A DNA stretch of 64,000 nucleotides, taken from the NCBI RefSeq assembly GCF_030705305.1, contig NZ_JAUZEE010000006.1, forward strand, positions 62,001 through 126,000. The letters run 5' to 3'. Shown piece by piece: positions 6,930 to 27,531 of the stretch (position 1 is its first letter; each line of letters starts with the position of its first letter). A program made the translations under genes and the position numbers. Source of the stretch: Leptothrix discophora. GTDB lineage: Bacteria; Pseudomonadota; Gammaproteobacteria; Burkholderiales; Burkholderiaceae_C. The notes under the pieces are model-generated. The model made no database searches, was not told the DNA's origin, and saw only the letters and a program-made list of their open reading frames with translations.

Positions 6930-6943
6930 GGGCGGGTTCCTGT

Positions 6944-7252: not shown

Positions 7253-7288
7253 GGGCTTTCCTTGAAGGGGGAATCGGGGTTCGGGGGA

Positions 7289-8113: not shown

Positions 8114-8227
8114 GCAGGTCTTCCTTTCAAGGACGTTCCGGATCACATGAACGACAGGCACGACAGGCCGGCGTCGGCCCTGCGGCTAAAGTGGCTGGCA
8201 TAGCCCCGAACAGCGAATCGACCAGCG

Positions 8228-9247
8228 ATGTCCCGAGACCCGTCGAGCACCCGAAAGATCACCGCCAGCGATGTCGCCGAGCGCGTCGGCGTGTCCAAGT
8301 GGACCGTCTCGCGCGCCTTCACCGACGGCGCTTCGATCGCGCCCGACGTGCGCGAACGCGTGCTGCAGGCCGCCGCCGAGATGGGCTACTCGCCCAACCT
8401 GCTGGCGCGCAGCCTGACGACCCGCAGCTCGCGTCTGGTCGCGCTGGTGGTCGACGAACTCGGCAACCCGAACCAGCTCTTCCTGATCAACGAGGCGACC
8501 CGGCAGCTGCAGGCCCGCGGCTTCAGCTCGCTGCTGCTCAACCTCAGCCCCGAATACGGTCCGGCGGCGGCCCTGCGGCTGGCCGACCAGTTCCAGGTCG
8601 ACGGCATCATGTTCATGGGCACCTCGCTGAACCAGGAGCTGATCGAGCTGGCGCAGAAGATCCGCCGCGTGCCGCTGGTGGTCGTCAGCCGCAACTCGTC
8701 GCTGTCCAACATTCCCTTCGTCACCACCGATGGCTATGCCGCCGGTGCCGAGATCGCCGACCTGTTCCTGTCGCAAGGCCTGCGCCGCATCGGCCACATG
8801 ACCGGCCCGGCCTCGGAGCGCACCGAGCTGCGCCGGCTCGACGGCTTCCGCGACCGGCTGGAGGCCTGTGGCGTGCCGCTGGCCTGCGTGCTGCATGCCG
8901 ATCACTACCGCCGCGACCAGGCCATGCAGGCCCTGCTGAAGTACCTCGGCGCGACCCCGCGCGAACAGCGCATCGAGGCGCTGTTCTGCGAGAGCGACAT
9001 CCTGGCGATCGGTGCGCTCGACGCGCTGCATTCGACCGGCAACCTGCACCGCCTCGCGGTCGTCGGCTTCGACGACATCGAGATGGCCTCGGCACCGCCC
9101 TACCAGCTGACCACCTTCCGCCAGCCGGTCGACCACCTCGTCGCCGAGGCGATCCGCCGCATCCTCGATCCGGACGCGCTGGACGCCGGCTCGCTGCTGG
9201 CGCCGGGCACGCTGGTGCTGCGCGGCTCGCATCGCCGGCTCGGCTGA
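8228..9247 (+). CDS. LacI family transcriptional regulator
   Basis: The 339-residue protein has a LacI helix-turn-helix at residues 10-60 (ITASDVAERVGVSKWTVSRA, then the hinge segment MGYSPNLLARSL). A periplasmic-binding-protein-like effector domain follows, ending in the typical VVGFDDIEMASAPPYQLTTF. It is divergent from the RpiR gene with 114 bases between starts, and convergent with the MocA-like dehydrogenase gene. Two LacI-type palindromes at 12029 and 12238, in front of the divergent isomerase and hydroxylase genes, are good candidates for its operators (inference). The effector is probably the sugar or cyclitol handled by the cluster or one of its metabolites. Confidence 0.93.
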   Translation: MSRDPSSTRKITASDVAERVGVSKWTVSRAFTDGASIAPDVRERVLQAAAEMGYSPNLLARSLTTRSSRLVALVVDELGNPNQLFLINEATRQLQARGFSSLLLNLSPEYGPAAALRLADQFQVDGIMFMGTSLNQELIELAQKIRRVPLVVVSRNSSLSNIPFVTTDGYAAGAEIADLFLSQGLRRIGHMTGPASERTELRRLDGFRDRLEACGVPLACVLHADHYRRDQAMQALLKYLGATPREQRIEALFCESDILAIGALDALHSTGNLHRLAVVGFDDIEMASAPPYQLTTFRQPVDHLVAEAIRRILDPDALDAGSLLAPGTLVLRGSHRRLG

Positions 9248-12281: not shown

Positions 12282-13295
12282 ATGGATGACTCGCACTTCG
12301 GCGTGCGCAACAAGCGCGGCGACTGGGCCCCGACCGGCCGGCGCGAGGTGGCGCCCTTCTGGGCCTGGCCGCCGCAGCTGGGCAAGGTGCTGGCCTGGCT
12401 GCCGGGCTATGTCTGGCCCTGGAACGCCTTCCACCTCGCCACCGCGCTGCTGTGGTGGTTCTTCGTCGTGCCCGATGCGGCGACGCTCAAGGTGCTGTCC
12501 TGGGGCTGGCCGGCCTGGCTGCTGGCGGTCAACTGGGTCGCCTGCCTGGCCTGGTACGGCGCCTTCGAATGGCGGCTCTACCGCCAGCGGGCCCAGGCCG
12601 GGCGCTTCAAGTACCACCACAAGTTCCCGTCCGAATCGCCCTCGGACGTGTTCTGGTTCAAGAGCCAGAACATCGACAACTTCCTGCGCAGCTTCCTGAT
12701 CTCCATCCCGCTGTGGACGCTGGTGCAGGTGATCTTCCTGTGGTGCTGGGCGAACGGCATCGGCGCCTGGCTGACCTGGGACGAGCATCCCGTCTACCTG
12801 ACGCTGCTGCTGCTGCTGTCGCCGGCCATCCACGAGGTCCACTTCTACGCGATCCACCGGCTGATCCACACGCCGCAGCTCTACAAGTGGATCCACTCGA
12901 TCCACCACAACTCGGTCAACCCGAGCCCGTGGTCCTCGCTGAGCATGCACCCGGTCGAGGGCTTCCTGTACCACGCGGTCGCGCTGTGGCACCTGGTGAT
13001 CCCGTCCAACCCGATCGTGGCGATGTTCCAGCTGCATGCGGCCGGCTTCGGCGCCATCAACGGCCACATCGGCTTCGACCGCATCGAGCTGGGCGATGAG
13101 CGCTGGATGCACAGCCATGCCTACACGCACTACCTGCACCACAAGTACTTCGAGGTGAACTTCGGCGGCGACGGCCTGGTCCCGCTGGACCTCTGGCTGG
13201 GCACCTGGCACGACGGCAGCAAGGACGGCGAACGCCAGATGCAGGCCCGCTACGAACGCAAGCTGGCGCGCATGAACGCCGGCAAGGCCGGTTGA
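12282..13295 (+). CDS. sterol desaturase/fatty acid hydroxylase superfamily di-iron protein
   Basis: A 337-residue integral membrane protein with four or more hydrophobic segments and the histidine clusters of the sterol desaturase/fatty acid hydroxylase superfamily. The clusters are HEVHFYAIHRLIH, WIHSIHHNS and HYLHHKYFEVNFGGD, with a further HSHAYTH. These ligate a non-haem di-iron centre for O2-dependent hydroxylation. In the moc locus the equivalent position is held by an oxygenase (MocD) served by the MocE ferredoxin. I infer that this protein hydroxylates or O-demethylates the imported substrate using the Rieske ferredoxin at 6944. The formaldehyde would pass to THF. It begins the plus-strand half of the island and precedes the ABC transporter genes. 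Confidence 0.85.
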   Translation: MDDSHFGVRNKRGDWAPTGRREVAPFWAWPPQLGKVLAWLPGYVWPWNAFHLATALLWWFFVVPDAATLKVLSWGWPAWLLAVNWVACLAWYGAFEWRLYRQRAQAGRFKYHHKFPSESPSDVFWFKSQNIDNFLRSFLISIPLWTLVQVIFLWCWANGIGAWLTWDEHPVYLTLLLLLSPAIHEVHFYAIHRLIHTPQLYKWIHSIHHNSVNPSPWSSLSMHPVEGFLYHAVALWHLVIPSNPIVAMFQLHAAGFGAINGHIGFDRIELGDERWMHSHAYTHYLHHKYFEVNFGGDGLVPLDLWLGTWHDGSKDGERQMQARYERKLARMNAGKAG

Positions 13296-14564: not shown

Positions 14565-15632
14565 ATGAACCCGTCCCTCACCACCGCCCCGCCCGCCGGG
14601 GCCGCCACCGACCCGAGCCCGCGCATGCCCACCCTTCAACTCGGCAACCTCCTGCGACGTCCGGAGACCGGCTCGTTCATCGGCCTCGTCTCGGTCTTCG
14701 TCTTCTTCGCCATCTTCGGTGGCGAGACCTTCCTGTCGACCAGCGGCGCGGCCAGCTGGCTCAACATCGCGGCCGAGCTGGGCATCATCGCCCTGCCGGT
14801 CGGCCTGCTGATGATTGCCGGCCACCTCGACTTGTCGGTCGGCAGCGTGATCCCGGCCAGCTCGATGACGGTGGCCATCGTCTCGGGCCACTACGGCCTG
14901 CCGATGCCCGTGGGCATCGCCGCCGCGCTCGGCCTGGGCCTGGCGATCGGCTTCATCAACGGCTACCTGATCGTGCGCACCGACCTGCCGTCCTTCGTCG
15001 TCACGCTGGCCACGCTGTTCGCGGTCGCCGGCCTGACGCTGGGCCTGTCGGTGATCGTCGCGGGCAGCACCAGCGTCGCGCTCAAGGCCGACCCGGTCAC
15101 CAAGGCCATCTTCGGCGACTACATCGACGGCAAGTTCCAGATCGTGCTGCTGTGGTGGATCGCCGCCGCGCTGCTGGTCGGCTTCATCCTCAGCCGCACC
15201 AGGTACGGCAACTGGATCCTGGCCCTCGGCGGCGACAAGGTCAGCGCCCGCAATGCCGGCATCCCGACCGACAAGCTCAACATCGCGCTCTACATGGGCA
15301 GCGGCTTCTGCTCGGCCTTCGTGGGCATGTGCCAGGCCATCCTCTACAACAGCGCGCAGGTCTCGGCCGGCCAGTCCTTCATCTTCAACTCGATCATCGC
15401 GGTGGTCATCGGCGGCGTGATCCTGACCGGCGGCTACGGCTCGGTGCTGGGCATCGTGCTGGGCACCATGACCTTCGCGATCGTGAACCAGGGCATCTAC
15501 TACACCGGCTTCGACGCCAACTGGGCCAGCCTGATCATCGGCGTCCTGCTGCTGGCCGCCGTGCTGCTCAACAACACCTTCCGGACCAAGGCGCTGTCGC
15601 ACTCGAAGTCCACCGCCAAGAAGAAGGCCTGA
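14565..15632 (+). CDS. ribose-type ABC transporter permease
   Basis: A 355-residue inner-membrane permease of the RbsC/FrcC family (BPD_transp_2), with about ten transmembrane segments starting near residue 40. Typical stretches are LMIAGHLDLSVGSVIPASS, INGYLIVRTDLPSFVVTLAT, GNWILALGGDKVSARNAGIP and VIGGVILTGGYGSVLGIVLG. I chose the ATG at 14565 because upstream in-frame codons belong to the binding-protein gene in another frame. The stop overlaps the spacer before the ATPase start by two bases, indicating one transcript. It would form a homodimeric pore for the ligand captured by the protein at 13444. Confidence 0.93.
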   Translation: MNPSLTTAPPAGAATDPSPRMPTLQLGNLLRRPETGSFIGLVSVFVFFAIFGGETFLSTSGAASWLNIAAELGIIALPVGLLMIAGHLDLSVGSVIPASSMTVAIVSGHYGLPMPVGIAAALGLGLAIGFINGYLIVRTDLPSFVVTLATLFAVAGLTLGLSVIVAGSTSVALKADPVTKAIFGDYIDGKFQIVLLWWIAAALLVGFILSRTRYGNWILALGGDKVSARNAGIPTDKLNIALYMGSGFCSAFVGMCQAILYNSAQVSAGQSFIFNSIIAVVIGGVILTGGYGSVLGIVLGTMTFAIVNQGIYYTGFDANWASLIIGVLLLAAVLLNNTFRTKALSHSKSTAKKKA

Positions 15633-15634
15633 CC

Positions 15635-16450
15635 ATGAACGCACCCCTGCTCCAGCTTTCGGGCATCTACAAGTCCTTCGGTCCGGTCGATGTCCTGCAC
15701 GACATCTCGCTGGAGGTGAAGGCCGGCGAGGTCCTGTGCCTGCTCGGCGACAACGGCGCGGGCAAGTCCACGCTGATCCGCATCCTGTCGGGCGTGCACC
15801 AGCCGACCCGCGGCGAGATGCGCATGAACGGCCAGGCCGTCTCGTTCCAGAACCCGCGCGAGGCCAGCGAACACGGCATCTCGACGGTGCACCAGTTCGG
15901 CGGCACCTTCCCGCTGATGAGCATCGGCCGCTCCTTCTTCGTCGGTGCCGAGCCGACGAAACGCTGGGGGCCCTTCGAGGTCTTCGACCGCAGGAAGGCC
16001 AACGAGATCGCGGTGCGCGAGATGCGCCAGCTGGGCATCACCCGCATCGACGACGGCAACCGGCTGGTCGGCGGGCTGTCCGGCGGCGAGCGCCAGGCGC
16101 TGGCGATCGCCCGTGCGGTCCACTTCGGCGCGAGCGTGCTGATCCTCGACGAGCCGACCGCCGCGCTGGGCGTCAAGGAAGCGGCGCATGTGCTGCGCAT
16201 CATCCTGCAGGCCCGCAAGAAGGGCGTCGCGGTCATCTTCATCACCCACAACGTGGTGCATGCGCTGACCGTGGGCGACCACTTCGCGGTGCTGATCCGC
16301 GGGGCCAAGGCGGCCGACTTCCGCAAGGGCGAGAAGAGCCGCGAGGAGATCACCGACCTGATGGCCGGCGGCGAGGCCATGGCCGAGCTGGAGGCCGAGA
16401 TCGAGGGCTACATGGCCACGCACGACGGCCATCCGCCGCAGGTGGCCTGA
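15635..16450 (+). CDS. ribose-type ABC transporter ATP-binding protein (single domain)
   Basis: A 271-residue ATPase with Walker A LLGDNGAGKSTLIRIL, the signature LSGGERQALAIARAV, Walker B VLILDEPTAALG and the switch histidine in IFITHN. It is the FrcA-like half-size form, unlike the double-domain RbsA. The protein therefore probably dimerises. ATG follows the permease stop by two bases. The C-terminus (ITDLMAGGEAMAELEAEIEG) is normal for the FrcA group. Together with 13444 and 14565 it makes a complete importer. Confidence 0.94.
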   Translation: MNAPLLQLSGIYKSFGPVDVLHDISLEVKAGEVLCLLGDNGAGKSTLIRILSGVHQPTRGEMRMNGQAVSFQNPREASEHGISTVHQFGGTFPLMSIGRSFFVGAEPTKRWGPFEVFDRRKANEIAVREMRQLGITRIDDGNRLVGGLSGGERQALAIARAVHFGASVLILDEPTAALGVKEAAHVLRIILQARKKGVAVIFITHNVVHALTVGDHFAVLIRGAKAADFRKGEKSREEITDLMAGGEAMAELEAEIEGYMATHDGHPPQVA

Positions 16451-16461
16451 GCCACGCCCGC

Positions 16462-16486
16462 CGCTGGCTCATCGACCGAGCCAGCG
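16462..16486. terminator. 9-bp inverted repeat between convergent genes
   Basis: CGCTGGCTC (16462-16470) pairs with GAGCCAGCG (16478-16486) around ATCGACC. It lies between the ATPase stop (16450) and the stop of the minus-strand catalase-like gene (16496), so it may end transcripts from both directions. No U-tract is seen. Core identical to the hairpin at 13307 except for one loop base. Confidence 0.55.
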
Positions 16487-16495
16487 CCGGGCGCC

Positions 16496-17695
16496 TCAGG
16501 CGTCGAAGGTCTCCGAGCCGTCCGGCTCGACGTGCGGCGTGCCGTTCATGGCCTGGCGCAGCCGCGAGAGTTCCTCGTAGATGCGCCGGCGCGCCCGGTT
16601 CTGGTTGCCCAGCGGGCGGTGCGCTTCCAGTGCATGCCACGGGTGGATCGACAGCCGGTGCGCGAAGGCCAGCTGCGCCGGGCTGTCGAAGACCTGCTGC
16701 GGGATGTGCAGCGTGGCCACCGGGACCGGCGGGGACAACCGCTCGCTCCAGCGCACCGAGGCGTTCTCGATCGGCGTGTGGCGGGCATCGACCTGGCGCT
16801 GCACGCACAGCTCAAAGGCGGCGTCGCGCGTGCGCAGCGTCGCGGCCAGGGCCTCGCGCAGGTAGTTCGGCGAGGGCCGGCCGGGCAGGCCCGGCACCGC
16901 GCGGGGCGGGCCGTCGCCGAGCGGCCGGAACTGGTACTGCATGACCGCCTCCGGCCCGAGCCGGTAGGGCACGCAGCCCCAATAGCCGGTCTCCAGCGGG
17001 CTGGTCTGGGTGCGCGACCAGAGCGCCTGCATCAGGCTGTCGAGCAGGTGGCCACGCAGGAAGTACCACAGCGGCGTGCCGCGCCGGATCATGGCCTGCA
17101 GCTGCGCGTTGGCGATCACGTCCGGCGTGGTGAAGACCGGCGTGCTGATGCCGGTCAGGTCCTGCGTGTGGCGCTCGTCGTCCATCAGCTTGGGGCCGGG
17201 CACGTCCATCACCTTGACGCCCAGGCTGAGCACGCCGACGTCGTCGATGTCCGGCGGGCTGGCCGGCCCCGGGCCGCCGAAGCGCACCCAGGCCGGGTAG
17301 CGCCGGGGCGTCGCGAAAAGGCCGTGGCGCAGCGCCTCGGGCAGGCCGTCGTGCACGCGCAGCTCGGCCCGCACGACGCCATGGGTCTTGGTGTTGCCGG
17401 CGCGTTCGTACTCGCCGGGGCGGTAGAGGCGGTGCATGTGGTCGCGCATGTCGCGCACGATCGCGTCGACGCAGGCCTCCTCGCCGGGCAAGGGCGTTTC
17501 CTCGCCCGGCCGCTCGCGCACGCGCGCCGGCTGCAGGCGGATCAGGGCCTGCACGACGCGGGTCAGCGGCTCGCGCAGCAGGCTGTCCAGCGCCGGCCGC
17601 ACCAAGGGGTCGACGCGCCGTTCCAGCTGCATCAGCCGGACGAGGCTGCCGTGCAGCGCGCGTTCCAGCGCGCCGGCCGGGGGCGGGCGGTTCAT
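16496..17695 (-). CDS. catalase-fold haem protein (small catalase-like)
   Basis: A 399-residue protein with the catalase core but without the long C-terminal extension of classical catalases. The presumed distal histidine region is NTKTHGVVRAELRVHD, followed by YPAWVRFGG and the VLSLGVKVMDVPG strand. The proximal haem tyrosine region is probably ETGYWGCVPYRLGPEAVMQY. Small catalase-related proteins of this type include peroxygenase-like and allene-oxide-synthase-like enzymes, so hydroperoxide conversion is as likely as H2O2 disproportionation. No signal peptide is visible. The ATG overlaps the DyP stop by 4 bp, so it is translated with the DyP gene as the last gene of a six-gene operon. Confidence 0.85.
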   Translation of the reverse strand: MNRPPPAGALERALHGSLVRLMQLERRVDPLVRPALDSLLREPLTRVVQALIRLQPARVRERPGEETPLPGEEACVDAIVRDMRDHMHRLYRPGEYERAGNTKTHGVVRAELRVHDGLPEALRHGLFATPRRYPAWVRFGGPGPASPPDIDDVGVLSLGVKVMDVPGPKLMDDERHTQDLTGISTPVFTTPDVIANAQLQAMIRRGTPLWYFLRGHLLDSLMQALWSRTQTSPLETGYWGCVPYRLGPEAVMQYQFRPLGDGPPRAVPGLPGRPSPNYLREALAATLRTRDAAFELCVQRQVDARHTPIENASVRWSERLSPPVPVATLHIPQQVFDSPAQLAFAHRLSIHPWHALEAHRPLGNQNRARRRIYEELSRLRQAMNGTPHVEPDGSETFDA

Positions 17696-19179
17696 GGTGC
17701 CGCCCCGTCGCCGACCGTGGCCAGGTAGCGCAGCGCGCGCCGTCCGGGCAGGAAGAAGTAGCCGCCGCCGCGCACGGTGACGAAGCGCGGCAGGCCCTCC
17801 AGGCGCTGGCCCGGGCCACCGGCCTGCGGCAGCGTCATCGTGTCGCTCGGTCGCCCGGCCGCGTCGGGCAGGCGATGGCCCAGCAGCGGGTCGCTCTCGC
17901 CGCTCAGGCCGCCGAATTGCGTGCTGGCGATCCAGGCGCCCTGCACGAACTCGAACTGGCGGCTCAGGCTGGCGTTCAGCGCCACGAAGGCCAGGCCCTG
18001 CGGCGCGTCGGCCGGGCCGTAGGTCCGGCCACGCCGCAGCAGGCGATGGAAGCGGGTCGACGCGATCCGGTCGCGCTCGCGGGCGGCCGCGTCCAGCCCG
18101 AGCGTGCGCAGCAGCCAGGACAGGCCGGTGTTGTCGCCCGGCGGCAGGTCGGCGTTGCGCGGGTTGCTGCGTCGGATGTGCGCGCCGACGGGGCAGCGCA
18201 GGCCGTCCGTATCGGCGTCGAAGGTGAAGCCTTCGGGATCCCCTGCGTCCGCATCGACCAGCGGCGTGCCATCGCGGCGGCGGCCGACCAGGCGCTCGGC
18301 CAGGCGCTCGCGCGCGGCGGCGTCGCCACCGGCCAGCCGGTCCATGCAGGACCAGAAGCCGGCCACGTCCTGCGCCAGCTGGCGCAGCACCAGGTAGCTG
18401 CCGTTGCGGCCGAGGTCGCGCTGGCCGGGCTGGTCCTCGGCATCCGGTAGCAGGCCCTGCGGGTCGCGTGCAGGATCGAGCAGCGGCCGCTCGGTGTAGC
18501 CGCCGTATTCGTTCGGGTAGCCGAGCAGGAACTCGCCCAGGCAGGTCAGCGGCGCATAGGCCAGCCGGGTCTGGTCGCGCGGCGGCCGTTCGCGGGCCCA
18601 GTCCAGTTCGGGCTGCGACAGGCCGTCGGCGAAGCCGAAGGGCTCGCGGCCGTCGAGCGCCTCGCCGCCCAGCGTCGTGACCGTGTCGAAGGCCGTGCCC
18701 CAGCCGGTCGCGGCATCGGCGAGTTCGGCCTGCCAGCCGGCCAGCCGGCCGGGCTGCGCATAGAGCATCAGCAGCAGGTGCGGCAGGCGCTCGCCGCAGC
18801 CCCACAGCCAGCCGGCCGACGCGTTCGGGCCGATGTCGCCGAGCCGGCGGGCCTGGCTCTCGTCCTGGCCCAGGCCGAGCAGGAACTCGTCGGAGAAGCC
18901 GGCCAGCAGGTCCTCGGGCAGGCCGAGCGCGCGCAGGCCGGGCGCCGTCAGCGCGACCTGCAGGACGCGGGCGGGCAGCGGCTCGGCACGCCGTGCGCTG
19001 GCCACCGGCGCGTCCGCCAGCCAGCGCCGCGCGGCGGCCGCGTCGCGCACCCGCAGCAGCACGAAGGCCGATTCGGGATGGTCCTTGTAGGCCCGCCGCA
19101 GCAGGCCCTGCACGTCGTCGAGGTCGACCGACGCATGCGTCGTCGACCGGCCGGTGGGGCTGCGCCGGGACCCGGTCAT
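17692..19179 (-). CDS. DyP-type peroxidase family protein
   Basis: A 495-residue haem peroxidase of the dye-decolorising family. The GxxDG motif appears as EPFGFADGLSQPELDW, the proximal haem histidine is in CPVGAHIRRSNPRNAD, and TRFHRLLRRGRTYG and GLAFVALNASLSRQFEFVQ are conserved C-terminal segments. It is longer than bacterial A/B-type DyPs and resembles the larger C/D-type proteins. No Tat signal is visible at the N-terminus, so it is probably cytosolic unless the true start lies elsewhere. The start chosen forms a 4-bp ATGA overlap with the upstream membrane-protein gene, and its stop overlaps the catalase-like gene in the same way. Substrate unknown. Confidence 0.92.
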   Translation of the reverse strand: MTGSRRSPTGRSTTHASVDLDDVQGLLRRAYKDHPESAFVLLRVRDAAAARRWLADAPVASARRAEPLPARVLQVALTAPGLRALGLPEDLLAGFSDEFLLGLGQDESQARRLGDIGPNASAGWLWGCGERLPHLLLMLYAQPGRLAGWQAELADAATGWGTAFDTVTTLGGEALDGREPFGFADGLSQPELDWARERPPRDQTRLAYAPLTCLGEFLLGYPNEYGGYTERPLLDPARDPQGLLPDAEDQPGQRDLGRNGSYLVLRQLAQDVAGFWSCMDRLAGGDAAARERLAERLVGRRRDGTPLVDADAGDPEGFTFDADTDGLRCPVGAHIRRSNPRNADLPPGDNTGLSWLLRTLGLDAAARERDRIASTRFHRLLRRGRTYGPADAPQGLAFVALNASLSRQFEFVQGAWIASTQFGGLSGESDPLLGHRLPDAAGRPSDTMTLPQAGGPGQRLEGLPRFVTVRGGGYFFLPGRRALRYLATVGDGAAP

Positions 19180-20525
19180 AGCAGCTTCAGCCAGGCCAGG
19201 GCCTCGGCCTCGGTGAGGTCGGTGCGGGCCAGGCCGTCGCGGATGCGCTGGTGGCGCGCCAGGTCGACCAGGCTCAGGCCGGGATAGGCCTTGAACCAGA
19301 CCTGCGTGGGCACCTGGTGGCGGCGCTGGTAGGGCTTGAAGCGGTGCTCCCGGCGCGCGCCGCCCAGCACCAGCCAGCGGGTGCGCGGCCAGCCCACACC
19401 ATTGCTGAAGACGAGGTTGAGGCCCCAGGCGACCTTGTTGATGAAGTCGTCCATGTAGCCCTGGTGGCTGCCGTCGTAGTTGCTGATGAAGAGCACGCGC
19501 GAGCGAGCGTCCAGGCAGACCCAGCGGGCGAAGTGGATGGTCTGCACCCGCGCCAGGTAGCCGCGCGTGTAGAGGTGGCGGCAGCTGTAGTCGATGGCCA
19601 GCAGCAGCGCGGCGAGCAGCCAGCCCCGGAAGCGACCGGGCTTGACCGGGCCGATGGCGGTGTACTGGTTGGTGACGTCGCGGTCTTCCAGCGCCTGCAG
19701 CGTGCGCAGCAGGCCGGGGTCCGGGCGCGGGCAGATCTCCGGGTCGGCTTGCTCGCGCTGGCGCAGCAGCCAGAGCAGCACCGGCAAGGCCAGCAGCAGC
19801 AGCGGCCAGAGCAGCACCCCGAGCAGCAGCCCGATCGCCGGCACCGCCAGCAGGTGCAGCCACCGGCGCAGTTGCCAGGCCAGCGGCGTGGGGGCCTCGG
19901 GCGTGAGCCTCAGCTCGCCGGCCTGCACGGCGGCGCGGGCGCGCGCCTGCAAGGCGGCATGCAGGCGCCGTGCGCCGTCCGGGGCGGCGAGTGGCTCGGT
20001 CCGTGAGCCTGAGGGCAGACGGGCCGACAGCCAGGCCTGCAAGGCCTGTTCCTCGTGCACCTGCTGCACCGTGCGGCCGAGCGTGTTGACGTAGGCCGCC
20101 TGGGCCGGTCGCGCCCGCGCCAGCAGCCAGGCCAGCAGGTCGGCTGGAGCGTCGCCCTGCGGATCGAAGCCGGCGCAGTGGCCGAACAGTTGCCGCAGGC
20201 CGTCGCCGGCACGCGCGACCAGGTCGGCCAGGCAGTCGCGCGCCGGGCCGTCGCAGTCGATCATCAGGACCAGCGCGGTCGGCAGCCGGGGGCGCGGTGG
20301 CCGCGTGCGTGCATCGGGCAGGGCGTCGAGGTCGGCCTGCAGCGCATCGTCGATCAGCACCAGGCGGGCGAAGTGGATCTGCCCGAAGGCGCCGAAGGGC
20401 AGCACCGGATGGGCCGGATCGGCCAGGCCGGGCTCGCGGTTCATGCCGTCGAGCAAGGCCCGCAGCGCGGCCTCGCGGCCGGCGGCCAGCGGCGCGACGA
20501 CGGTGCAGTGGTCCTGGGGCGTCAT
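19176..20525 (-). CDS. unknown membrane-associated protein with a duplicated IHFAR motif
   Basis: This 449-residue protein is not from a family I can name. Two soluble parts flank a hydrophobic block at about residues 215-260 (LLAVPAIGLLLGVLLWPLLL and following). A second short hydrophobic stretch, WLLAALLLAIDY, lies near residue 305. The N-terminal part has FGQIHFARLVLIDD and the C-terminal part has VQTIHFARWVCLDARSR, followed by FISNYDGSHQGYMDDF. The repeat suggests two related ferredoxin-like (dimeric alpha/beta-barrel) domains, the fold that also builds DyP peroxidases. Its stop overlaps the DyP start by 4 bp, so the two products are made together. A role in anchoring or delivering substrate to the DyP enzyme is inference. 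A GGCTC hairpin copy is embedded at 19993-20009. Confidence 0.8.
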   Translation of the reverse strand: MTPQDHCTVVAPLAAGREAALRALLDGMNREPGLADPAHPVLPFGAFGQIHFARLVLIDDALQADLDALPDARTRPPRPRLPTALVLMIDCDGPARDCLADLVARAGDGLRQLFGHCAGFDPQGDAPADLLAWLLARARPAQAAYVNTLGRTVQQVHEEQALQAWLSARLPSGSRTEPLAAPDGARRLHAALQARARAAVQAGELRLTPEAPTPLAWQLRRWLHLLAVPAIGLLLGVLLWPLLLLALPVLLWLLRQREQADPEICPRPDPGLLRTLQALEDRDVTNQYTAIGPVKPGRFRGWLLAALLLAIDYSCRHLYTRGYLARVQTIHFARWVCLDARSRVLFISNYDGSHQGYMDDFINKVAWGLNLVFSNGVGWPRTRWLVLGGARREHRFKPYQRRHQVPTQVWFKAYPGLSLVDLARHQRIRDGLARTDLTEAEALAWLKLL

Positions 20526-20541
20526 GACCGGGCCCGCAGGC

Positions 20542-20973
20542 TCAGAACTGCAGCGCGAAGTCGATCAGCCGGTCGCGGCCCCAGTAGACCTTGCCGAGGT
20601 AGAGGCCCGGCCCGATCAGGCGGATCTCGTCGCGGATGTAGTGCGCCACGATCGAGGTGTCCGAGTAGTCGAGCACGATGCATTCCTTGCCGTCCAGCCA
20701 GCTCGGGGCCTTGTAGACCTTGGCCAGGATGGCCTCGACGTGGAAGATCAGGATGCGGTTCTTCAGCACGCCCTTGGCGGAGTCGAACACCTTGCCCTGC
20801 CAGGCGAACAGGTTGACGACCTGGGCGATGGTCTCGGTGTAGCGCGTGCCCGGCGCGATGATGGCCGTGCCGGTGGCGACGCCATCGGGGATGTCTCCGG
20901 CCGGACTGGCCTCGAACAGCTCGTCCAGTTCCTTCTGGCTCATGTCCAGCAGCCGTGCGACGTCGATGCTCAT
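20542..20973 (-). CDS. conserved hypothetical protein, 143 residues
   Basis: A small soluble protein with no signal peptide or membrane segment. The first ~25 residues are acidic and helical (LLDMSQKELDELFEASPAG). A compact alpha/beta part follows, with SWLDGKECIVLDYSDTS, AHYIRDEIR and the C-terminal motif PGLYLGKVYWGRDRLIDFAL. The look is of a small ligand-binding or lipocalin-like domain, but I do not recognise the family with certainty. The ATG overlaps the GMC oxidoreductase stop by 4 bp, and the next gene follows after 16 bases. Translation coupling to the flavoenzyme suggests a direct partner or chaperone. Confidence 0.82.
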   Translation of the reverse strand: MSIDVARLLDMSQKELDELFEASPAGDIPDGVATGTAIIAPGTRYTETIAQVVNLFAWQGKVFDSAKGVLKNRILIFHVEAILAKVYKAPSWLDGKECIVLDYSDTSIVAHYIRDEIRLIGPGLYLGKVYWGRDRLIDFALQF

Positions 20974-22898
20974 GTCGTGCTCCTTGGGTGGGTTCCGGTT
21001 GCAGGGCCGCCGCCCGGCGGCCGGGGTGGATCGCCTTGTTGCAGCAGCGTCTCGGCGGCCTTCTCGCCGACGAGGTAGACCGCTGCGGCGACGAAGAAGC
21101 CGGGGATGCGCGGGAAGACCGAGGCATCGACCACGCGCAGCCGGCGCAGGCCGTGGACGCGGAAGTCGCTGGCCAGCACGCCGCCGTCGGCCACCGGCCC
21201 GATCGGGCAGGAGCACGAGGCGTGGTGGCCCCAGGCGGTGTCGCGCACATGGCGGGCCAGGGCCTCGTCGCTGTCGACCGCCAGGCCGGGCGAGGTTTCC
21301 TCGGCGATGACGCCGGATGCGCGCAGCGGCTCGGTCAGGCGGCGCACGAAGCGGATCGCCTCGACCATCGCGCGCAGGTCCTCGCCGGCCTGGTCGTCGC
21401 CTTCCTCGAAGTAGCGGAAGTCGATGTGCGGCGGCTCCAGCGGGTCGGCCGACCGCAGCGTGACGCGGCCGGCGCGGTTGCGCGTATGGGCCTTCAGCAC
21501 GGCCCAGGTCAGGCGGTCGGCATGGGCCTCGATGGCACGCGAATAGCCCGGCGCATAGCCCTCGAACAGCGTGGGCAGGGCCATGCAGAAGAGGTCCGGC
21601 TCGGGCGCGCGGCGGCTCGATCGCCGCACCACCGCGAGCGCCGCGCCGCTGCCGTCGTAGAGGCTGGAGCGGCGCTCGCGCCAGCGCTGCCAGGGCCGGT
21701 CGCCACGCCGGAAGCGCGCGCCGTCGAGCAGTTCCCAGGGCTGGCCCATGCGGTGGGTCAGCGCGATCTCGTAGCGGTCCTGCAGGTTGCGGCCGACGCC
21801 GGCCAGGTCGTGCCGGACGGCGATGCCGTGGCGGCGCAGTTCCTCGGCCGGGCCGATGCCCGAGAGCATCAGCAGCTGCGGCGTGTTGAAGGCGCCGCCG
21901 CACAGCACGACCTCGCGGCCGGCCTGCACGGTGCGGCGTTCGCCCGGCGTGCGCGCTGGCAGCGCATGGGCGCGGTAGAGGTGGCGGCCCTTGAGGTACT
22001 CGACGCCGCAGGCCGCGCCCTCGGCATCGAACAGCACCCGGGTGGCGAGCGCATCGGTCTCGACATGCAGCCGGCCGGGATGCCGTTGCGCGACCTGCAG
22101 CAGCCGCTCGCGCGTGCCGGTGCGGCGATGGCCGGCGGTCGACAGCGGCGTGTAGCACAGGCCCTCGAAGCTGCCGCGCCAGAGCTTCGGGCCGCGCGCG
22201 TTCGGGTCGCCCGCGCCCCACAGCGCATGGCGCAGGCCGTCGATCGGGTGACGCCAGCCGGCCAGCAGCGTCGCGGCGGTGCGGGCCGCCAGCGCGACCA
22301 TGCCGGGGTCGCCCAGGGCCTGCAGCGGCACCGAGCGTTCGGTGCGCAGCCAGCCGTTCCAGCCGTGGCCGGTCGGGTCCAGGCCGAGGTGGCGCAGCGC
22401 GCGCCAGACCGGCCGGTGGCGGCAGTCCTCCAGCCGCTTCAGGTGGCGCCGCATCGCGCTGGCGCGCCAGCTGCGGTCGCCGGTCAGGCCGGCGATGTGG
22501 TCCCAGTCCGAGTCGTGCGGCGGCATGAAGATCATCGCGTTGTGGGCCGTGCAGCCGCCCAGCGCGGCCGCGCGCGGGTAGAGCACGCCGTCGCGCTCGG
22601 CGACGAACTTCGGGTCACGCGCCTGGCGCTGCGTGTCGGCGTAGTGGCGGACGTGGAAGTTCCAGCTGATGGCCGGGTTCTCGCTCGCATGGGCATGGAA
22701 GCCGGGCACCTCGTAGTCGTCGGGCAGGCGCGCGTCGACGGCGGCAGCGTCGGCATCGGCCGGGTCCGGTCCGGCCTCGATCAGGAAGACCCGCTGGCCG
22801 CCCTCGACCAGCCGCGCGGCCAGCGTGCCGCCGCCGGCACCGGAGCCGACCACGACGTAGTCCCAGCTGCGTTGGTGGGCCGGCATCGTCGTGTCCAT
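20970..22898 (-). CDS. GMC family FAD oxidoreductase
   Basis: The 642-residue protein has the GMC flavin fold. The FAD dinucleotide motif is at residues 14-45 (YVVVGSGAGGGTLAARL and IEAGPD). The GMC signature 1 region is AAALGGCTAHNAMIFMPPHD and signature 2 is GGAFNTPQLLMLSGIGP. The C-terminal substrate domain holds the active-site histidine in AWGHHASCSCPIGP. The Asn-Pro usually found at the second catalytic position is not evident near PRIPGFFVAAAVYLVGEKAAE, which is unusual. It would oxidise an alcohol or aldehyde and pass electrons to O2 or, given the neighbour, to the c-type cytochrome. No signal peptide. It is the second gene of the operon, 23 bases after the cytochrome gene. Confidence 0.93.
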   Translation of the reverse strand: MDTTMPAHQRSWDYVVVGSGAGGGTLAARLVEGGQRVFLIEAGPDPADADAAAVDARLPDDYEVPGFHAHASENPAISWNFHVRHYADTQRQARDPKFVAERDGVLYPRAAALGGCTAHNAMIFMPPHDSDWDHIAGLTGDRSWRASAMRRHLKRLEDCRHRPVWRALRHLGLDPTGHGWNGWLRTERSVPLQALGDPGMVALAARTAATLLAGWRHPIDGLRHALWGAGDPNARGPKLWRGSFEGLCYTPLSTAGHRRTGTRERLLQVAQRHPGRLHVETDALATRVLFDAEGAACGVEYLKGRHLYRAHALPARTPGERRTVQAGREVVLCGGAFNTPQLLMLSGIGPAEELRRHGIAVRHDLAGVGRNLQDRYEIALTHRMGQPWELLDGARFRRGDRPWQRWRERRSSLYDGSGAALAVVRRSSRRAPEPDLFCMALPTLFEGYAPGYSRAIEAHADRLTWAVLKAHTRNRAGRVTLRSADPLEPPHIDFRYFEEGDDQAGEDLRAMVEAIRFVRRLTEPLRASGVIAEETSPGLAVDSDEALARHVRDTAWGHHASCSCPIGPVADGGVLASDFRVHGLRRLRVVDASVFPRIPGFFVAAAVYLVGEKAAETLLQQGDPPRPPGGGPATGTHPRSTT

Positions 22899-22921
22899 CG
22901 GGCTTTCCGGCCGGGGCGATG

Positions 22922-25474
22922 TCACAGGGTCTTGAGGAAGGCGATCAGCGCGCGCTTGTCCTCGTCGCCCAGGACTGGCTCGGTGCCCCAGGCGCGCTCG
23001 TCGGCGCTCAGGCCCTCGGTGCGGTTGAACTCGGCGGTGCCGAAGTAGTGGCCGCGGTTGACGACGAAGTCCGGGCACTTGCTCAGCGCCAGCAGCGGCT
23101 TCTTGAGGTTGGCGAGCCGGCGCGTCAGCTCGGCATCGTCGGCCTCGCGCGGCGCGCCGAGCAGGTCGAGCTTGAGCTTGATGATGGCCTCGGCCGCATC
23201 CTTCGCATGCGTGGCGATGACGGCCGGGTCGCTGCTTTCCGAGCGCAGCTTGATGTTGGCCAGCAGGTTGACCGGCACGCCCTTGGGGATCGGCCCGAGC
23301 GTCAGTCCGCCCGTCTCGTCGACCCATTGCGGCAGGTGCTCATGCAGCCAGTGGCGGGCCTTGTCCTGCAAGGGCTGCAGCGACTCGGGCAGGTAGCCGA
23401 AGGGGATGGTGATCTGGCTGCGCTGCGTGGTGCGGTCGATGGTGCCGGGCACCCGGTCGCCGAGCAGGCTGTCGCGCTCGCGCTTCTCGGGCCACAGCAG
23501 CTGCTCGATCGACGCATCGAAGACCTTGACCCGCGCGGCCACCGATGGATCGGTGTCGAAGGGGCCGAGGCTGTTGTTGAGCAGCAGCGGCCCGGTCGAC
23601 CAGGCGCTGATCAGCGAGGGCACGCGGGTGTAGCCACGCCCGCCGGCCGGCATCGCGTAGGGCGAGGGCTCGGCGGTGTACGGGTCCTGCACGGTGATGG
23701 TGCCGACCGAGGGCAGGGCCTTGTAGTCGCTCGACGAGAAGTTGTCCCAGATGTTGCCGCCCAGCGCATTCGTCGCCAGCGGGCTGCAGGCGTTGGTGCG
23801 CAGCAGCGTCACGGGGATGCGGGCCTCGGTCGACAGGTAGTTGTCCTTGAGGAAGTCGGGCGCCTGCACCACGCGGCGCATCTGCGCCTTGTAGTCGTCC
23901 GACTGGGTCCACTTCCAGTAGCGCCTGAAGCAGTCCAGGTAGCCCGCGCCGGCGCAGGCACGCGGCTCTAGCGCCAGCTCGGCCGGCGGCGTCGGGCCCT
24001 TGCTGGAATGGCAGCGCGCGCAGGTCTCGGCGAAGACGGTCCTGCCGCGTTCGAGCCTGGCGGCGTCGGCCGTCAGCAGGGCCGCGCCGCCGGGCGCGTC
24101 CTTCAGGCGGTCGGGCTGGGCGGCCTTCAGGAAGAACAGCGCGGTGGCCGGCGTGCCGGCCTCGGTGGCCTGCCAGTAGGACGAGTTCTTCTGCGCGTCG
24201 GCGATGCGGATCGGCGTGATGGTCTTGCCGCCCAGCACCGGGTTGAAGTGCAGCAGCCATTCCTCGCTGAACAGGCCGATGTTGAGGTAGACCCGGTTGA
24301 GCGCGCCCAGCAGGCCGACCGAGTCGGCCCCGTCCTTGAGCACGTGCGGCGTGCGCGCGATGGCGCCGGCCTTGTCGTAGAACTCGCTCAGCGGGCCGGT
24401 CGGGAACAGGTCGTTGAGCTGGCGGTTGTCCAGCTCGCCGCCGGCCAGCTGCTCATGCCACAGCAGCTTGCCCACCGCCAGGCGCGAGGCGAAGTCGTAG
24501 ACCGCGTTCATGGTGCGCGGGTTGTTGATGCTGTCGGTCGAGACCAGCGAGGTGTCCATCGCGCCCGGCCGGTAGGTGTGGGCCAGCTGGTACATGTAGT
24601 TGGCCTGGCCTTCGGGCCTGGCGGCGTTGTGGATGAACAGCCGGTCGACCCACATGTACTGCGCCCCGACCGAGGAGCTCAGGTTGACGTAGGCCGGGTT
24701 GTTCGGATCGGCCGGCGGATGGATGGGGCTCGGGCCGACATGGCAGAAGCCGCAGGACATGCCCACGCGGTAGGGCCGCACCAGGTCCTTGCGGTTGTAG
24801 TAGGACGGGTCGGTGTAATAGCGCTCGGCATCCCATGCCTGGGCGGCCTTGGCGTCGAAGGCCGGGTTGGGGAAGAGCCGCAGGCCCATGATCCCGGTCG
24901 GCTCGCCGTAGAACGAGCCGACCGGCTGGACGCTGCCGTCGCCCAGCGGCTGGCCGCGCGAGCCGATCGCCACGCCGGGGTACTTCTTCTCGTCGGCGAA
25001 GGGGTCGGGTGCGCAGTCCTGGCGGCGCCGGTCCAGCCAGAGGCCCCGATGGGCCTTGTCGGCGGCCTGGGCGGGCTCGAAGCAGGGTTCGTTGACGAGG
25101 CCCAGGTAGGACCAGCGGTTGCTGCGCGAATAGCCCAGGCTGGGGTGCGAGCTGATGACCTTGAGCAGGTCGAAGGCGCCGTAGGTGTACTGCGTCATCT
25201 GCTCCCAGAAGCGGTCGTTGCCGCCGCTCCAGACCAGCCACATGTTGCGGCCGGCCTCTTCCTGCGGCGTCAGCGCGACGCCGTTGTCCATGTCGCGGAA
25301 GTAGGGCTCGCTCGCATGCGTGAACGACGCGCCGCTGCGGCCGGCCAGGCGGGCCTCGTCCAGCACGGTACCGGGTTCGGGTGCCCTGGAACAGGCCACC
25401 AGCAGCAGCGATCCCGCGCCAGCTGCGACGCTTCGGGCCCACGTTCCTGCACGTCGTGCGGTGCTCGATGCCAT
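22922..25474 (-). CDS. large di-haem c-type cytochrome lipoprotein (possible oxygenase or peroxidase)
   Basis: An 850-residue exported lipoprotein. The N-terminal signal ends in a lipobox with C28 (LLLVACSR). Two c-type haem motifs are seen: CGFCH at 241-245 and CARCH at 485-489. Characteristic segments are MWLVWSGGNDRFW, RVYLNIGLFSEEW and SSYWQATEAGTPA. The ~240-residue haem spacing and large size are reminiscent of RoxA-type di-haem dioxygenases and other large di-haem peroxidase relatives, but that similarity is only a hypothesis. The start has an AAGGAGAGGTC ribosome site. It heads the operon with the GMC, DyP and catalase-like genes, so it probably supplies or removes electrons or oxygenated products in the periplasm. 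Confidence 0.85.
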   Translation of the reverse strand: MASSTARRAGTWARSVAAGAGSLLLVACSRAPEPGTVLDEARLAGRSGASFTHASEPYFRDMDNGVALTPQEEAGRNMWLVWSGGNDRFWEQMTQYTYGAFDLLKVISSHPSLGYSRSNRWSYLGLVNEPCFEPAQAADKAHRGLWLDRRRQDCAPDPFADEKKYPGVAIGSRGQPLGDGSVQPVGSFYGEPTGIMGLRLFPNPAFDAKAAQAWDAERYYTDPSYYNRKDLVRPYRVGMSCGFCHVGPSPIHPPADPNNPAYVNLSSSVGAQYMWVDRLFIHNAARPEGQANYMYQLAHTYRPGAMDTSLVSTDSINNPRTMNAVYDFASRLAVGKLLWHEQLAGGELDNRQLNDLFPTGPLSEFYDKAGAIARTPHVLKDGADSVGLLGALNRVYLNIGLFSEEWLLHFNPVLGGKTITPIRIADAQKNSSYWQATEAGTPATALFFLKAAQPDRLKDAPGGAALLTADAARLERGRTVFAETCARCHSSKGPTPPAELALEPRACAGAGYLDCFRRYWKWTQSDDYKAQMRRVVQAPDFLKDNYLSTEARIPVTLLRTNACSPLATNALGGNIWDNFSSSDYKALPSVGTITVQDPYTAEPSPYAMPAGGRGYTRVPSLISAWSTGPLLLNNSLGPFDTDPSVAARVKVFDASIEQLLWPEKRERDSLLGDRVPGTIDRTTQRSQITIPFGYLPESLQPLQDKARHWLHEHLPQWVDETGGLTLGPIPKGVPVNLLANIKLRSESSDPAVIATHAKDAAEAIIKLKLDLLGAPREADDAELTRRLANLKKPLLALSKCPDFVVNRGHYFGTAEFNRTEGLSADERAWGTEPVLGDEDKRALIAFLKTL

Positions 25475-25656: not shown

Positions 25657-27531
25657 TCACCAGCCTTCGACGGCCACCGCGTCCGGTGCGGCCGCATCGG
25701 CCTCGGGCCGCGGGCGTCGCCGGGCCGTGCCCAGCGCCGACAGCAGCGCGGGTTCTGCCACGCAGGACCGGTCGCGGCCGGCCGCCTTGGCCTGGTAGAG
25801 CGCCATGTCGGCCAGGTGGACCAGGTCCTCCGGCAGGTGGGACATGCTGGCGTCGGCGATGCCGAAGCTGGCCGTGTAGGCCGGGACCTGGCCGGCGCGC
25901 AGGGCCCGCGCGAGCTGCTCGCGCAGGGTCTCGACCACCTCGACGGCGGCGGCCGCGTTGGCGTAGGCCAGCAGCAGCGTGAACTCCTCGCCGCCCCAGC
26001 GGCCGGCCAGGTCGGCCTGGCCCAGCGTGCTGCGCAGCACGTCGGCGAAGACGCGCAGCGCGGCGTCGCCGGTGGCATGGCCGTGTCGGTCGTTGAGCAG
26101 CTTGAAGTGGTCCAGGTCGCACATGACGACCGCGTAGGCCTTGCCGCTGGAGGCCAGTTCGCGCAGCCGCTGTTCGGTGCTGCGGCGGTTCGGCAGGCCC
26201 GTCAGCGGGTCGGTGGCGGCCTGCAGCTGGGTCTTCTCGAAGGCCCGCACGGTGCCAATGCGCATGCCCAGCTGGCTGCCCAGCATCGTGACCTGCTGGA
26301 CCTGGTCGGCGCTGAAGGGCAGTCCCGGGCCGGCGGCGGCGTGCAGCACGCCCATGGACCGGCCCATGAAGGACACCGGCACGCAGACGGCCGAGCGGGT
26401 CTCGCAGGCGCGACCGCGCAGGTGCTCGCAGGCGTGCAGGTCGGTGCTGCTGTCGAAGGTGACGGCGCTGCCGCGCCGCACCGCGACGCAGTCGTAGGGC
26501 GAATGCACCCCGCAGCCGGGTGCGCCGACGTCCGGATGCTCGGCGGCGCGCGCCATCTGGGTCCGGCTGGAGTCGGAGATCAGCAGCTCCATCGGGTGTG
26601 CGGCGGAGACCTCGGTCATCGCCCGGCTGGCGACGGCGCAGACCTGGTGCTCGCGGTCGGCCATGTCCAGCGCATCGCTCAGGCGCTGGCCGAAGGCGGC
26701 CAGGCGGGCCTCGCGGCGCATGTCGTCGATCATGGCGTTGAGGCTGCTGGCCATGCGGTCGACCGCCGCGCCGAGCGCGCCCAGCTCGTCGTGCCGGCCG
26801 GTGCTGGCGCGGCGCGTCAGGTCACCGTCGGCAATCGCCTGGGCGACGCTGCACAGCTCGCCCAGCCGGCGCCGGATCGCCAGCGTGATCAGCGCGACGA
26901 TGGCGCTGGCCACCGCGATCGTGACCAGGCAGGTCCAGACCAGCGACTGGCGCGCCAGCGTCGCCTCCTGCGCCGCCAGGGCCTGGGCTTCCCGCAAGGC
27001 CACGCCGATCTGCTCGCCCTGCTGCTGCAGCTCGTCGACCAGGTGGCGGAACTGCTGGTCGAAGGCCGGCAGGCTGGCCAGGGCGACCTCGCGCTGCTCG
27101 ACCGCGCGGTGCGTCAGGTCCAGCGCCGCCTGGCCGTAGCTGCGCGCGGCCAGCCGGTTGCGGTGCACGCGCTCGACCAGCGCGGCGGGCAGCTCGTCGA
27201 AGGTGGCCAGGCGTTCGAGCGCGTCCTCCAGCTCGCGGGCGTCCTCGGCGACGTGGCGCAGCACGTCGTCCTGGGCCAGCTGCGGCACCTGTCCGACCAG
27301 CAGCGAGGCCAGCACGTCCGCACGCAGCGCGTCATGGACCATGTCGGCCTGCTTGTTGAGGTGCAGCGCCTCGGCCAGCCGCACCTGGCGGGCCTGGGCC
27401 TCGTCCTGCTGCGAGGAACTGCGCCACGCCAGCATCGCCAGCAGCAGCAGGGCCGCGACCACGGCTGCGTTCAGCGTGACCAGCTTGGCCCGCAGCGACA
27501 TCGCGCTGGCGTAGGACGTCATGTTCATCAC
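25657..27531 (-). CDS. membrane diguanylate cyclase with HAMP, GAF-like and GGDEF domains
   Basis: The 624-residue protein starts with a transmembrane helix at about 16-36. A periplasmic helical sensor follows to about residue 185, then a second transmembrane helix (WTCLVTIAVASAIVALITLA). Next are a HAMP segment, a GAF-like domain at about 275-430 containing several cysteines and histidines (GAPGCGVHS, DLHACEHLRGRACETR), and a GGDEF domain. The GGDEF active loop is WGGEEF, a functional variant, with DPLTGLPNRR and DLDHFKLLNDRHGH present. The inhibitory RxxD site five residues before it reads GQAD, so feedback inhibition by c-di-GMP is probably lost. The metal-ligand-rich GAF may sense metal or redox state. 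No linked target gene. Confidence 0.92.
   Translation of the reverse strand: MMNMTSYASAMSLRAKLVTLNAAVVAALLLLAMLAWRSSSQQDEAQARQVRLAEALHLNKQADMVHDALRADVLASLLVGQVPQLAQDDVLRHVAEDARELEDALERLATFDELPAALVERVHRNRLAARSYGQAALDLTHRAVEQREVALASLPAFDQQFRHLVDELQQQGEQIGVALREAQALAAQEATLARQSLVWTCLVTIAVASAIVALITLAIRRRLGELCSVAQAIADGDLTRRASTGRHDELGALGAAVDRMASSLNAMIDDMRREARLAAFGQRLSDALDMADREHQVCAVASRAMTEVSAAHPMELLISDSSRTQMARAAEHPDVGAPGCGVHSPYDCVAVRRGSAVTFDSSTDLHACEHLRGRACETRSAVCVPVSFMGRSMGVLHAAAGPGLPFSADQVQQVTMLGSQLGMRIGTVRAFEKTQLQAATDPLTGLPNRRSTEQRLRELASSGKAYAVVMCDLDHFKLLNDRHGHATGDAALRVFADVLRSTLGQADLAGRWGGEEFTLLLAYANAAAAVEVVETLREQLARALRAGQVPAYTASFGIADASMSHLPEDLVHLADMALYQAKAAGRDRSCVAEPALLSALGTARRRPRPEADAAAPDAVAVEGW

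Follow-up and report, generated by a model that had tools for sequence, protein, structure and literature searches.

What kind of pathway would place an exported dihaem cytochrome, a flavoprotein oxidoreductase, a peroxidase, a catalase-fold protein and two uncharacterised proteins in a single run of genes? This question is raised by a 64,000-nucleotide stretch of Leptothrix discophora DNA (the window; positions 62001-126000 of contig C28, in a genome of 4.65 Mb), where six minus-strand genes, here lettered A to F in 5' to 3' order, span positions 25474-16496. We found that the six genes are a real unit, beyond chance, and that this unit is built of two modules, A-B and (C)-D-E-F, each of which exists without the other. 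As to function, we consider it about an even bet that the operon encodes a pathway for the oxygenation of a lipid or fatty-acyl chain, the presumed substrate, and for processing of the resulting hydroperoxides. The six genes are as follows.

22922-25474, minus strand: A, exported (lipobox-like) dihaem c-type cytochrome, 850 residues; from frames and starts, profiles and an alignment of 88 homologues
20970-22898, minus strand: B, GMC flavoprotein oxidoreductase, 642 residues; PF00732 and PF05199, no export signal seen
20542-20973, minus strand: C, predicted lipocalin-like eight-stranded barrel, 143 residues; from predicted structure and fold matches
19176-20525, minus strand: D, two predicted ABM/ferredoxin-like domains (pseudo-dimer), 449 residues; from predicted structure and fold matches
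17692-19179, minus strand: E, DyP-type haem peroxidase by sequence, 495 residues; from profiles, relation to a solved DyP and motifs
16496-17695, minus strand: F, catalase-fold haem protein, probably of the catalase-related (allene-oxide-synthase-like) kind, 399 residues; from a profile and conserved residues

The layout agreed to the base with the initial annotation, which had described six minus-strand genes with three ATGA overlaps (B/C, D/E and E/F) and gaps of 23 bases (A/B) and 16 bases (C/D). All six frames are free of internal stop codons. The ATG of A is preceded by AAGGAGAGG and the start of C by AAGGAG, and a possible alternative GTG start of B at 22925 would overlap the stop codon of A as GTGA.

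The same annotation had treated the six genes as one functional unit and had proposed neighbourhood co-conservation as the check. Seven A homologues, used as queries in one scan of the species-genome collection, gave 379 relatives of A, the best 80 of which were kept with flanks of up to 10 kb on each side, gene presence being defined by tblastn at E≤1e-5. The complete A-F set was found in 48 of these 80 loci, so that co-conservation, rather than its absence, was the outcome. The incomplete loci held AB (12), ABC (9), ABF (3), ABCD (2), ABCDE (2), A (2), AE (1) or ABCDF (1), and several of them are truncated at contig ends. When the count was limited to the 54 loci whose flanks reach 6.5 kb or more on the left of A and 8.9 kb or more on its right, 39 had all six genes, and the other 15 had ABC (7), AB (5), ABF (2) or A (1). 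Six gene orders were observed in the complete loci: A>B>C>D>E>F> in 32, A>B>F>E<D<C< in 11 and four others in five. The second order occurred in Alphaproteobacteria (for example, Novosphingobium, Caulobacteraceae and Rhizobium), and two further orders came from one Acidobacteriota metagenome-assembled genome and one from Edaphobacter; the complete sets thus span Proteobacteria and Acidobacteria. The retention of an identical gene set despite rearranged order is strong evidence of joint function. A genome of another class (G495) has the full A-F order with identities of 57% (A), 56% (B), 73% (C), 49% (D), 47% (E) and 50% (F), and the nearest relatives of A among the best 80 of 379 were from Scleromatobacter humisilvae (77%) and a Rhizobacter sp. 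metagenome-assembled genome (76%), both of which we take to belong to Burkholderiales. Sequences with a stop codon in the aligned stretch were dropped from alignments (A of L091; B of L032, L038, L048, L059, L064, L071, L082 and L101; E of L033 and L081), and the tblastn gene counts retain all 80 loci. Neighbours shared among Variovorax loci (transporter-like by eye, plus, in 11 loci, an alpha/beta hydrolase located 1.8-4.6 kb from A) were rejected as partners and regarded as shared synteny.

The unit is conserved, as had been claimed, but it is not a single indivisible set. The distribution of its genes was examined in the same 398 genomes of the phylum throughout (A profile at E≤1e-20, C at E≤1e-8). 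A was present in five of them (the window's own genome, G086, G342, G447 and G495) and C in four (the window's own genome, G334, G642 and G495), and both occurred together in two. D was detected in 19 genomes, with full-length D in exactly the four that contain C; the chance of such a four-of-four coincidence is about 1e-9 by hand calculation, which assumes independent genomes, which they are not. G334 and G642 carry C, D, E and F together in genomes without A, and in G642 (L139, 12688-15390) E and F are fused in one 900-residue open frame. G086 and G447, on the other hand, carry A-B and lack both C and D. The idea that the six genes are inseparable is ruled out by these genomes holding only one module. 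D-E-F were also found on a contig of 12.7 kb in G131, and short D', E and F homologues are consecutive in Deinococcus radiodurans. The latter triad resembles D-E-F of the window in composition (29, 31 and 32% identity) and differs in that A, B and C are not adjacent and D' has only 243 residues. In the 15 other genomes with D the matches were partial: six in frames of 1410-1544 residues, two in frames of 543-550 residues (both followed by E) and seven in frames of 164-708 residues. As a side observation, another, divergent cluster in the genome that contains the window (L142, G000:C27:34000-52000, 6166-9245) consists of two D'-like stretches followed by an E-like DyP (28% identity to E), a layout in which D-type genes again adjoin this kind of DyP.

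Both modules have alternative partners. In 10 of 88 loci (L006, L007, L020, L066, L071, L074, L079, L083, L084 and L100), a patatin-like gene lay no more than 600 bp from the core; in two (L055 and L072) it was farther off. Counted by gene, patatin-like genes make up 10 of the 167 genes near the core and 2 of the 711 distant ones (Fisher p 2e-6, L008 and the window excluded; the loci are related, not independent). Their hosts are Alpha- and Betaproteobacteria, Acidobacteria and one genome of the window's class. The Pfam Patatin model was matched over cut-off in L007, L066, L074, L020 and L084 and under cut-off in L100; L083 and L071 had no match to it; and L006 and L079 were assigned by BLAST similarity. 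In L008 (Rhizobium sp. CCGE532, 14764-19377), the GMC protein B and a patatin are fused in one open 1537-residue protein. Six loci have Tle1-like phospholipase genes, which in two cases lie at most 600 bp from the core (assigned by Pfam in L080 and L006, and by BLAST in the other four). Paired RoxA-like dihaem proteins (PF21419) also accompany A-B in Rhizobium, Sinorhizobium, Beijerinckiaceae, Rhodospirillales and Pseudoroseomonas, and a two-gene molybdenum hydroxylase occupied the place of D-E-F in five loci (four Cupriavidus and one Burkholderiaceae). It was also noted that L096 (12583-15891) encodes a 1102-residue protein that ends in a RoxA-like dihaem cytochrome and whose N-terminal parts look hydrophobic by eye; in Rhizobium, a small hydrophobic 143-residue protein lies between two RoxA-like cytochromes instead.

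For the second module, G642 has an exported-looking 1008-residue animal-haem-peroxidase (L139, 8269-11295; PF03098, 1.7e-68) between C and D, where another catalase-like gene also lies. PF03098 is presumably the superfamily of the fungal linoleate dioxygenases. Upstream of C in G334 lie an alpha/beta hydrolase gene and a GMC gene similar to cholesterol oxidase (240 bits against a cut-off of 850). Among 11 D-E stretches outside A-B loci, F was present in three (L106, L138 and L139), a P450 in six, neither in two and both in none. The P450 is fused ahead of D-E in four (L103 5814-10145, L105 5775-10637, L102 5877-10148 and L017 6880-11151; 1423-1620 residues) and is the next gene in L104 and L141. 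The large gene before each fusion encodes a SARP regulator, a cyclase/TPR protein, a TPR protein or a hypothetical protein (annotated or scanned). Over about 16 kb, F and P450 are both absent from L108 (7194-10118) and L140 (6382-9557), so that a third partner of D-E may exist. Five aligned P450s have Pro (GFxPT in four and GGPPQ in one) at what we take to be the position of the I-helix acid of oxygen-activating P450s; this is suggestive only, in that it would fit a P450 using peroxide rather than O2. The P450-D-E fusions could be the bacterial analogue of fungal dioxygenase-P450 fusions (linoleate diol/allene oxide synthases), in which a peroxide-type haem domain is likewise joined to a P450, although the bacterial proteins have a different haem fold (DyP + ABM).

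Considered jointly, the phospholipases, putative oxygenases of two unrelated haem types, allene-oxide-synthase-like F or a P450, and a GMC oxidase are best accounted for by a lipid pathway. In such a pathway, exported A would act in the periplasm, oxygenating an unsaturated acyl chain or a related lipid to give a hydroperoxide or an oxo/hydroxy product. The hydrophobic intermediate may then be carried or shielded by lipocalin-like C inside the cell, where C to F would be located, and the hydroperoxide could be rearranged or split by F, as an enzyme of the allene-oxide-synthase kind of catalase fold. Further oxidation or C-C cleavage would fall to D, putatively membrane-associated, and DyP E acting together, and the resulting alcohol would be oxidised by B. 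We infer this scheme, including substrate, order of steps, products, cellular locations and all catalytic activities, from the genes themselves, their co-conservation in shuffled orders, the two modules, the fold assignments, the key residues and the alternative partners. The initial annotation had likewise placed an exported dihaem cytochrome beside enzymes taken to be cytosolic (we too saw no export signal in the partners of A), and had suggested stepwise oxidation of a lipid or polymer, with oxygenation in the periplasm and then handling of hydroperoxides and alcohols inside the cell. Such handling is supported as a reading for a lipid; the lipid half of the substrate claim is partly borne out by the phospholipase partners, whereas the polymer half found no support here.

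Several points weigh against a lipid pathway. Among the 48 complete loci, 47 have no patatin within 600 bp of the core (L071 being the exception), and Tle1-like genes were seen in the flanks of L080 and L081. With patatin that close in a single complete locus, most of the phospholipase evidence comes from A-B loci that lack D-E-F, and the lipid reading thus depends on the A-B module that they share with the complete loci. That A is an oxygenase is presumptive, since the MauG-type His is mostly absent and the link to RoxA-like proteins covers only 29 columns. The match of F to allene oxide synthase extends over only 60 residues, with the distal His replaced by Gln in 11 of 36 sequences, and the D-E stretches of L108 and L140 have neither F nor P450. 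In addition, the nearest folds of D are polyketide enzymes, and thus an aromatic or polyketide substrate could be involved.

The strongest rival is the clearing of oxidised lipids, in which the operon would remove lipid hydroperoxides and their alcohol or aldehyde products after oxidative damage, with no synthesis of oxylipins. Two peroxide-type haem proteins (E and F), the phospholipase partners and the D'-E-F triad of D. radiodurans speak for it. However, the exported dihaem protein, the animal-haem-peroxidase and the RoxA-like pairs suggest deliberate oxygenation, and the patchy distribution of A and C (five and four of 398 genomes) is unlike that of housekeeping repair; we regard such clearing as an unlikely, if serious, contender. 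The lipid oxygenation pathway might in turn be a bacterial oxylipin pathway made of parts unlike those of plants, animals and fungi, whose product might serve as a signal to other microbes or to plants. Lipoxygenase would be replaced by a dioxygenase of the c-type dihaem or animal-haem-peroxidase type, the allene-oxide-synthase/lyase role would be taken interchangeably by a catalase-fold enzyme or a P450, and a new ABM + DyP pair, sometimes fused to a P450 or a catalase-fold enzyme, would finish the product. Taking these parts jointly, the proposal is tentative and probably wrong in at least some respect.

A has CxxCH at 241 and 485 and, as read from sequence, a lipobox-like LVAC ending at residue 28. 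All 88 A homologues have exactly two CxxCH, spaced by 239-252 residues in 84 of them (full range 221-252; 244 in the window), and a loose lipobox pattern was found in 60 (L014 was excluded from one A alignment). The initial annotation had read this protein as RoxA-like. This reading holds only at the superfamily level, A being a dihaem cytochrome of the wider RoxA/CCP type: like RoxA, RoxB and RoxC, it is exported and carries two haem sites, one CxxCH in its N-terminal and one in its C-terminal part. Membership of the RoxA family itself was rejected. No match was found to the NCBIfam models of RoxA, RoxB and RoxC (NF050033, NF050034 and NF051462) at E≤0.1, nor to RoxA 4b2n at E≤1 among the matches listed, and the MauG-type motif P[YF].HNGSVP reads GPLLLNNSLG in A. 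At the MauG-type His position, the A family has Leu in 82 of 88 sequences and His in three, the pattern being unmatched in three. The dihaem peroxidase model NF040606 gave 20.1 bits (cut-off 150), and general c-type haem sites were among the best 60 of 70 matches of the A profile to PDB sequences. Closer RoxA-like proteins (PF21419) do exist as the alternative partners of A-B; profile-profile comparison aligned A with them over only 29 columns around the second haem, and the same was seen with 88 A sequences.

Another comparison is with the Pseudomonas aeruginosa oleate 10S-dioxygenase and 7,10-diol synthase (PA2077/PA2078, FadCcp), which are exported dihaem c-type enzymes acting on fatty acids. 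Passages of PMC4496055 describe them as a RoxA-related pair acting on oleate and its 10-hydroperoxide, with haem spacings of 245 and 235, near the 244 of A, versus 199 in RoxA. The same passages give the PYFHNGSVP motif for both PA2077 and PA2078, whereas A is without it (PMC4496055). The comparison of A with FadCcp covered haem spacing, this motif and the NF040606 score. A differs from FadCcp in its 850 residues, in the absence of the MauG-motif His, in a score of only 20.1 bits against NF040606 and in its association with five other genes. The RoxA-like pairs that accompany A-B elsewhere are, through RoxA, related to the P. aeruginosa pair.

These data also bear on the RoxA-derived idea that an isoprenoid or rubber-like polymer is oxidised. 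RoxA-like partners occur in seven loci, and a forced global alignment, which is weak evidence, shows a dihaem layout common to A and RoxA-like proteins, with 'NNS' aligned to 'NGS' and a shared C-terminal stretch (GH..GT..L..DK.AL..FLKT). But A itself has no match to the RoxA, RoxB and RoxC models, or to 4b2n among the matches listed, and the RoxA-like partners match NF040606 (12 of 12 aligned) and reach 48-63 bits against RoxA/B/C cut-offs of 900-1000 (one table). We give polymer oxidation little credence.

The remaining members of the putative lipid pathway were assigned as follows. B matched PF05199 (3.2e-27) and PF00732 (5.2e-20), both over cut-off, and scored 225.8 bits against a choline-dehydrogenase-like model, under its cut-off of 605. 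None of the other five proteins had an above-cut-off family model in Pfam or NCBIfam. The AlphaFold model of C (mean predicted local distance difference test score, pLDDT, 83.5) is an eight-stranded barrel whose best fold match is the uncharacterised Tcur_1030 (4mve; Z 11.8, 128 aligned residues, root-mean-square deviation (rmsd) 3.2), with Z of only 5-6 to lipocalins and fatty-acid-binding proteins; C is thus predicted to be a lipocalin-like barrel. Its profile found 8qad at 0.01 among PDB sequences, with no single stretch passing alone. Allene oxide cyclase, a beta barrel too, was considered as an identity for C; it was absent among the listed fold matches of C, which decides nothing. The C and D alignments comprised 37 of 61 and 34 of 51 relatives at hand, respectively (L016 added to the latter).

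D had no Pfam match, and its profile found only 7tgh (E 1.1) among PDB sequences. In the predicted model (mean pLDDT 88.5), a long hydrophobic helix (residues 215-260, approximately) connects two ABM/ferredoxin-like domains, and the fold matches include 9lmn (WhiE-ORFI; Z 14.2, 224 aligned, rmsd 4.0) and 9ltx (polyketide decarboxylase Abx(+)O; Z 11.8, 202 aligned, rmsd 4.4), so that D is modelled as a tandem ABM/SchA-like fold. These folds would suit tailoring or breakdown of an aromatic, polyketide or lignin-type compound, as would the oxidation of phenolics by DyPs (mentioned in part of PMC10820274). The identified recurrent neighbours, on the contrary, are lipases, RoxA-like cytochromes, a molybdenum hydroxylase and an old-yellow-enzyme homologue. 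This neighbour argument is weak, because the identified neighbours are a minority of the 22 clusters listed; even so, an aromatic or polyketide substrate appears improbable to us.

E most likely belongs to the DyP superfamily: family scores fell under cut-off (TIGR01413, E 3.5e-21 but 75.9 bits against 100.5; PF20628, 18.3 against 20), and the assignment is kept because of a nearly full-length relation to the solved DyP 8re3 (6.4e-38). GFxDG was present in all 32 aligned sequences (from 31 of 49 relatives at hand), and His334, which by motif we take to be the haem ligand, is invariant. Near-full-length solved relatives among the matches listed were only Deinococcus DrDyP (8re3/8re2), described in part of PMC10820274 as a class C DyP that is inactive at physiological pH and has a six-coordinate low-spin haem.

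The description of F as catalase-like holds only distantly. F had no Pfam or NCBIfam match, catalase (PF00199) included at E≤0.1, and its profile found no true catalase among PDB sequences at E≤1. By contrast, the coral allene oxide synthase-lipoxygenase was found (1u5u, 8.2e-5; 3dy5, 8.7e-4; 60 residues), and 3e4w weakly (0.63). A true catalase was thus ruled out, and F appears by sequence nearer to allene oxide synthase than to catalase. Among 36 F sequences (from 35 of 54 relatives at hand), T104, R369 and Y373 were invariant and residue 105 was His in 25 and Gln in 11; the Gln-105 sequences include Variovorax, Rhizobacter, Scleromatobacter and Rhodoferax loci. Coral allene oxide synthase has distal T66, H67 and N137 and proximal ligand Y353 (passages of PMC5617202), and the residues of F were paired with T66-H67 and Y353 by eye. 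By this pairing, F of the window would resemble the coral allene oxide synthase/hydroperoxide lyase and their lipoxygenase fusions in a catalase-related core, an apparent Thr-His distal pair, an apparent Arg/Tyr proximal side and an adjoining oxygenase, putative in the case of F. It differs in being stand-alone and bacterial, in the 60-residue extent of the profile match and in its Gln variants, and no lipoxygenase was seen.

The D. radiodurans homologue of F has 34% identity over 325 columns. The DyP/'catalase family' pair of this organism is taken to be DR_A0145/DR_A0146, the tags being assigned from adjacency alone. Part of PMC7143949 lists DR_A0146 as one of three D. radiodurans catalases and as a poorer H2O2 scavenger than KatE1. 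Plain hydrogen peroxide or oxidative-stress defence by DyP and catalase, for which this listing and the 'catalase family protein' annotation of F relatives would speak, is the least probable explanation and very unlikely, as it leaves A, B, C and D unexplained and is at odds with the nearness of F to allene oxide synthase, the Gln variants and the inactivity of DrDyP at physiological pH (part of PMC10820274).

Enzymatic lipid or fatty-acid oxygenation is of a known kind, and every protein from A to F belongs to or resembles a known superfamily. The gene set itself appears undescribed: no account of it or of a fused P450-DyP was found in the literature searched, with subscription papers mostly outside coverage, which agrees with the earlier remark that no named pathway has this set. 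In our judgement, little is understood about the 'catalase family' proteins of bacteria. DyP peroxidases, for their part, are described as having an unclear physiological role and unclear natural substrates (part of PMC10820274). The operon provides a specific, repeated genetic context for both kinds of protein, which ties them to the uncharacterised C and D, the uncurated dihaem family A and phospholipases. This brings the question of substrate within reach of direct tests on lipid hydroperoxides, for which a few purified proteins would do.

Finally, the limits of the operon were considered. A HAMP-GAF-GGDEF gene (25657-27528) lies 5' of A on the same strand, its end 182 bases away, and beyond F the ATPase gene of a sugar-type ABC transporter is on the plus strand, convergent with F. 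Given this interval and the convergent gene, the transcription unit most likely extends from A through F, as judged from gene layout; a sigma-70 consensus scan of the region found no promoter. About 3 kb past F, with the sugar-type ABC transporter in between, there is a gene of the fatty-acid-hydroxylase family (PF04116; window positions 12282-13295).

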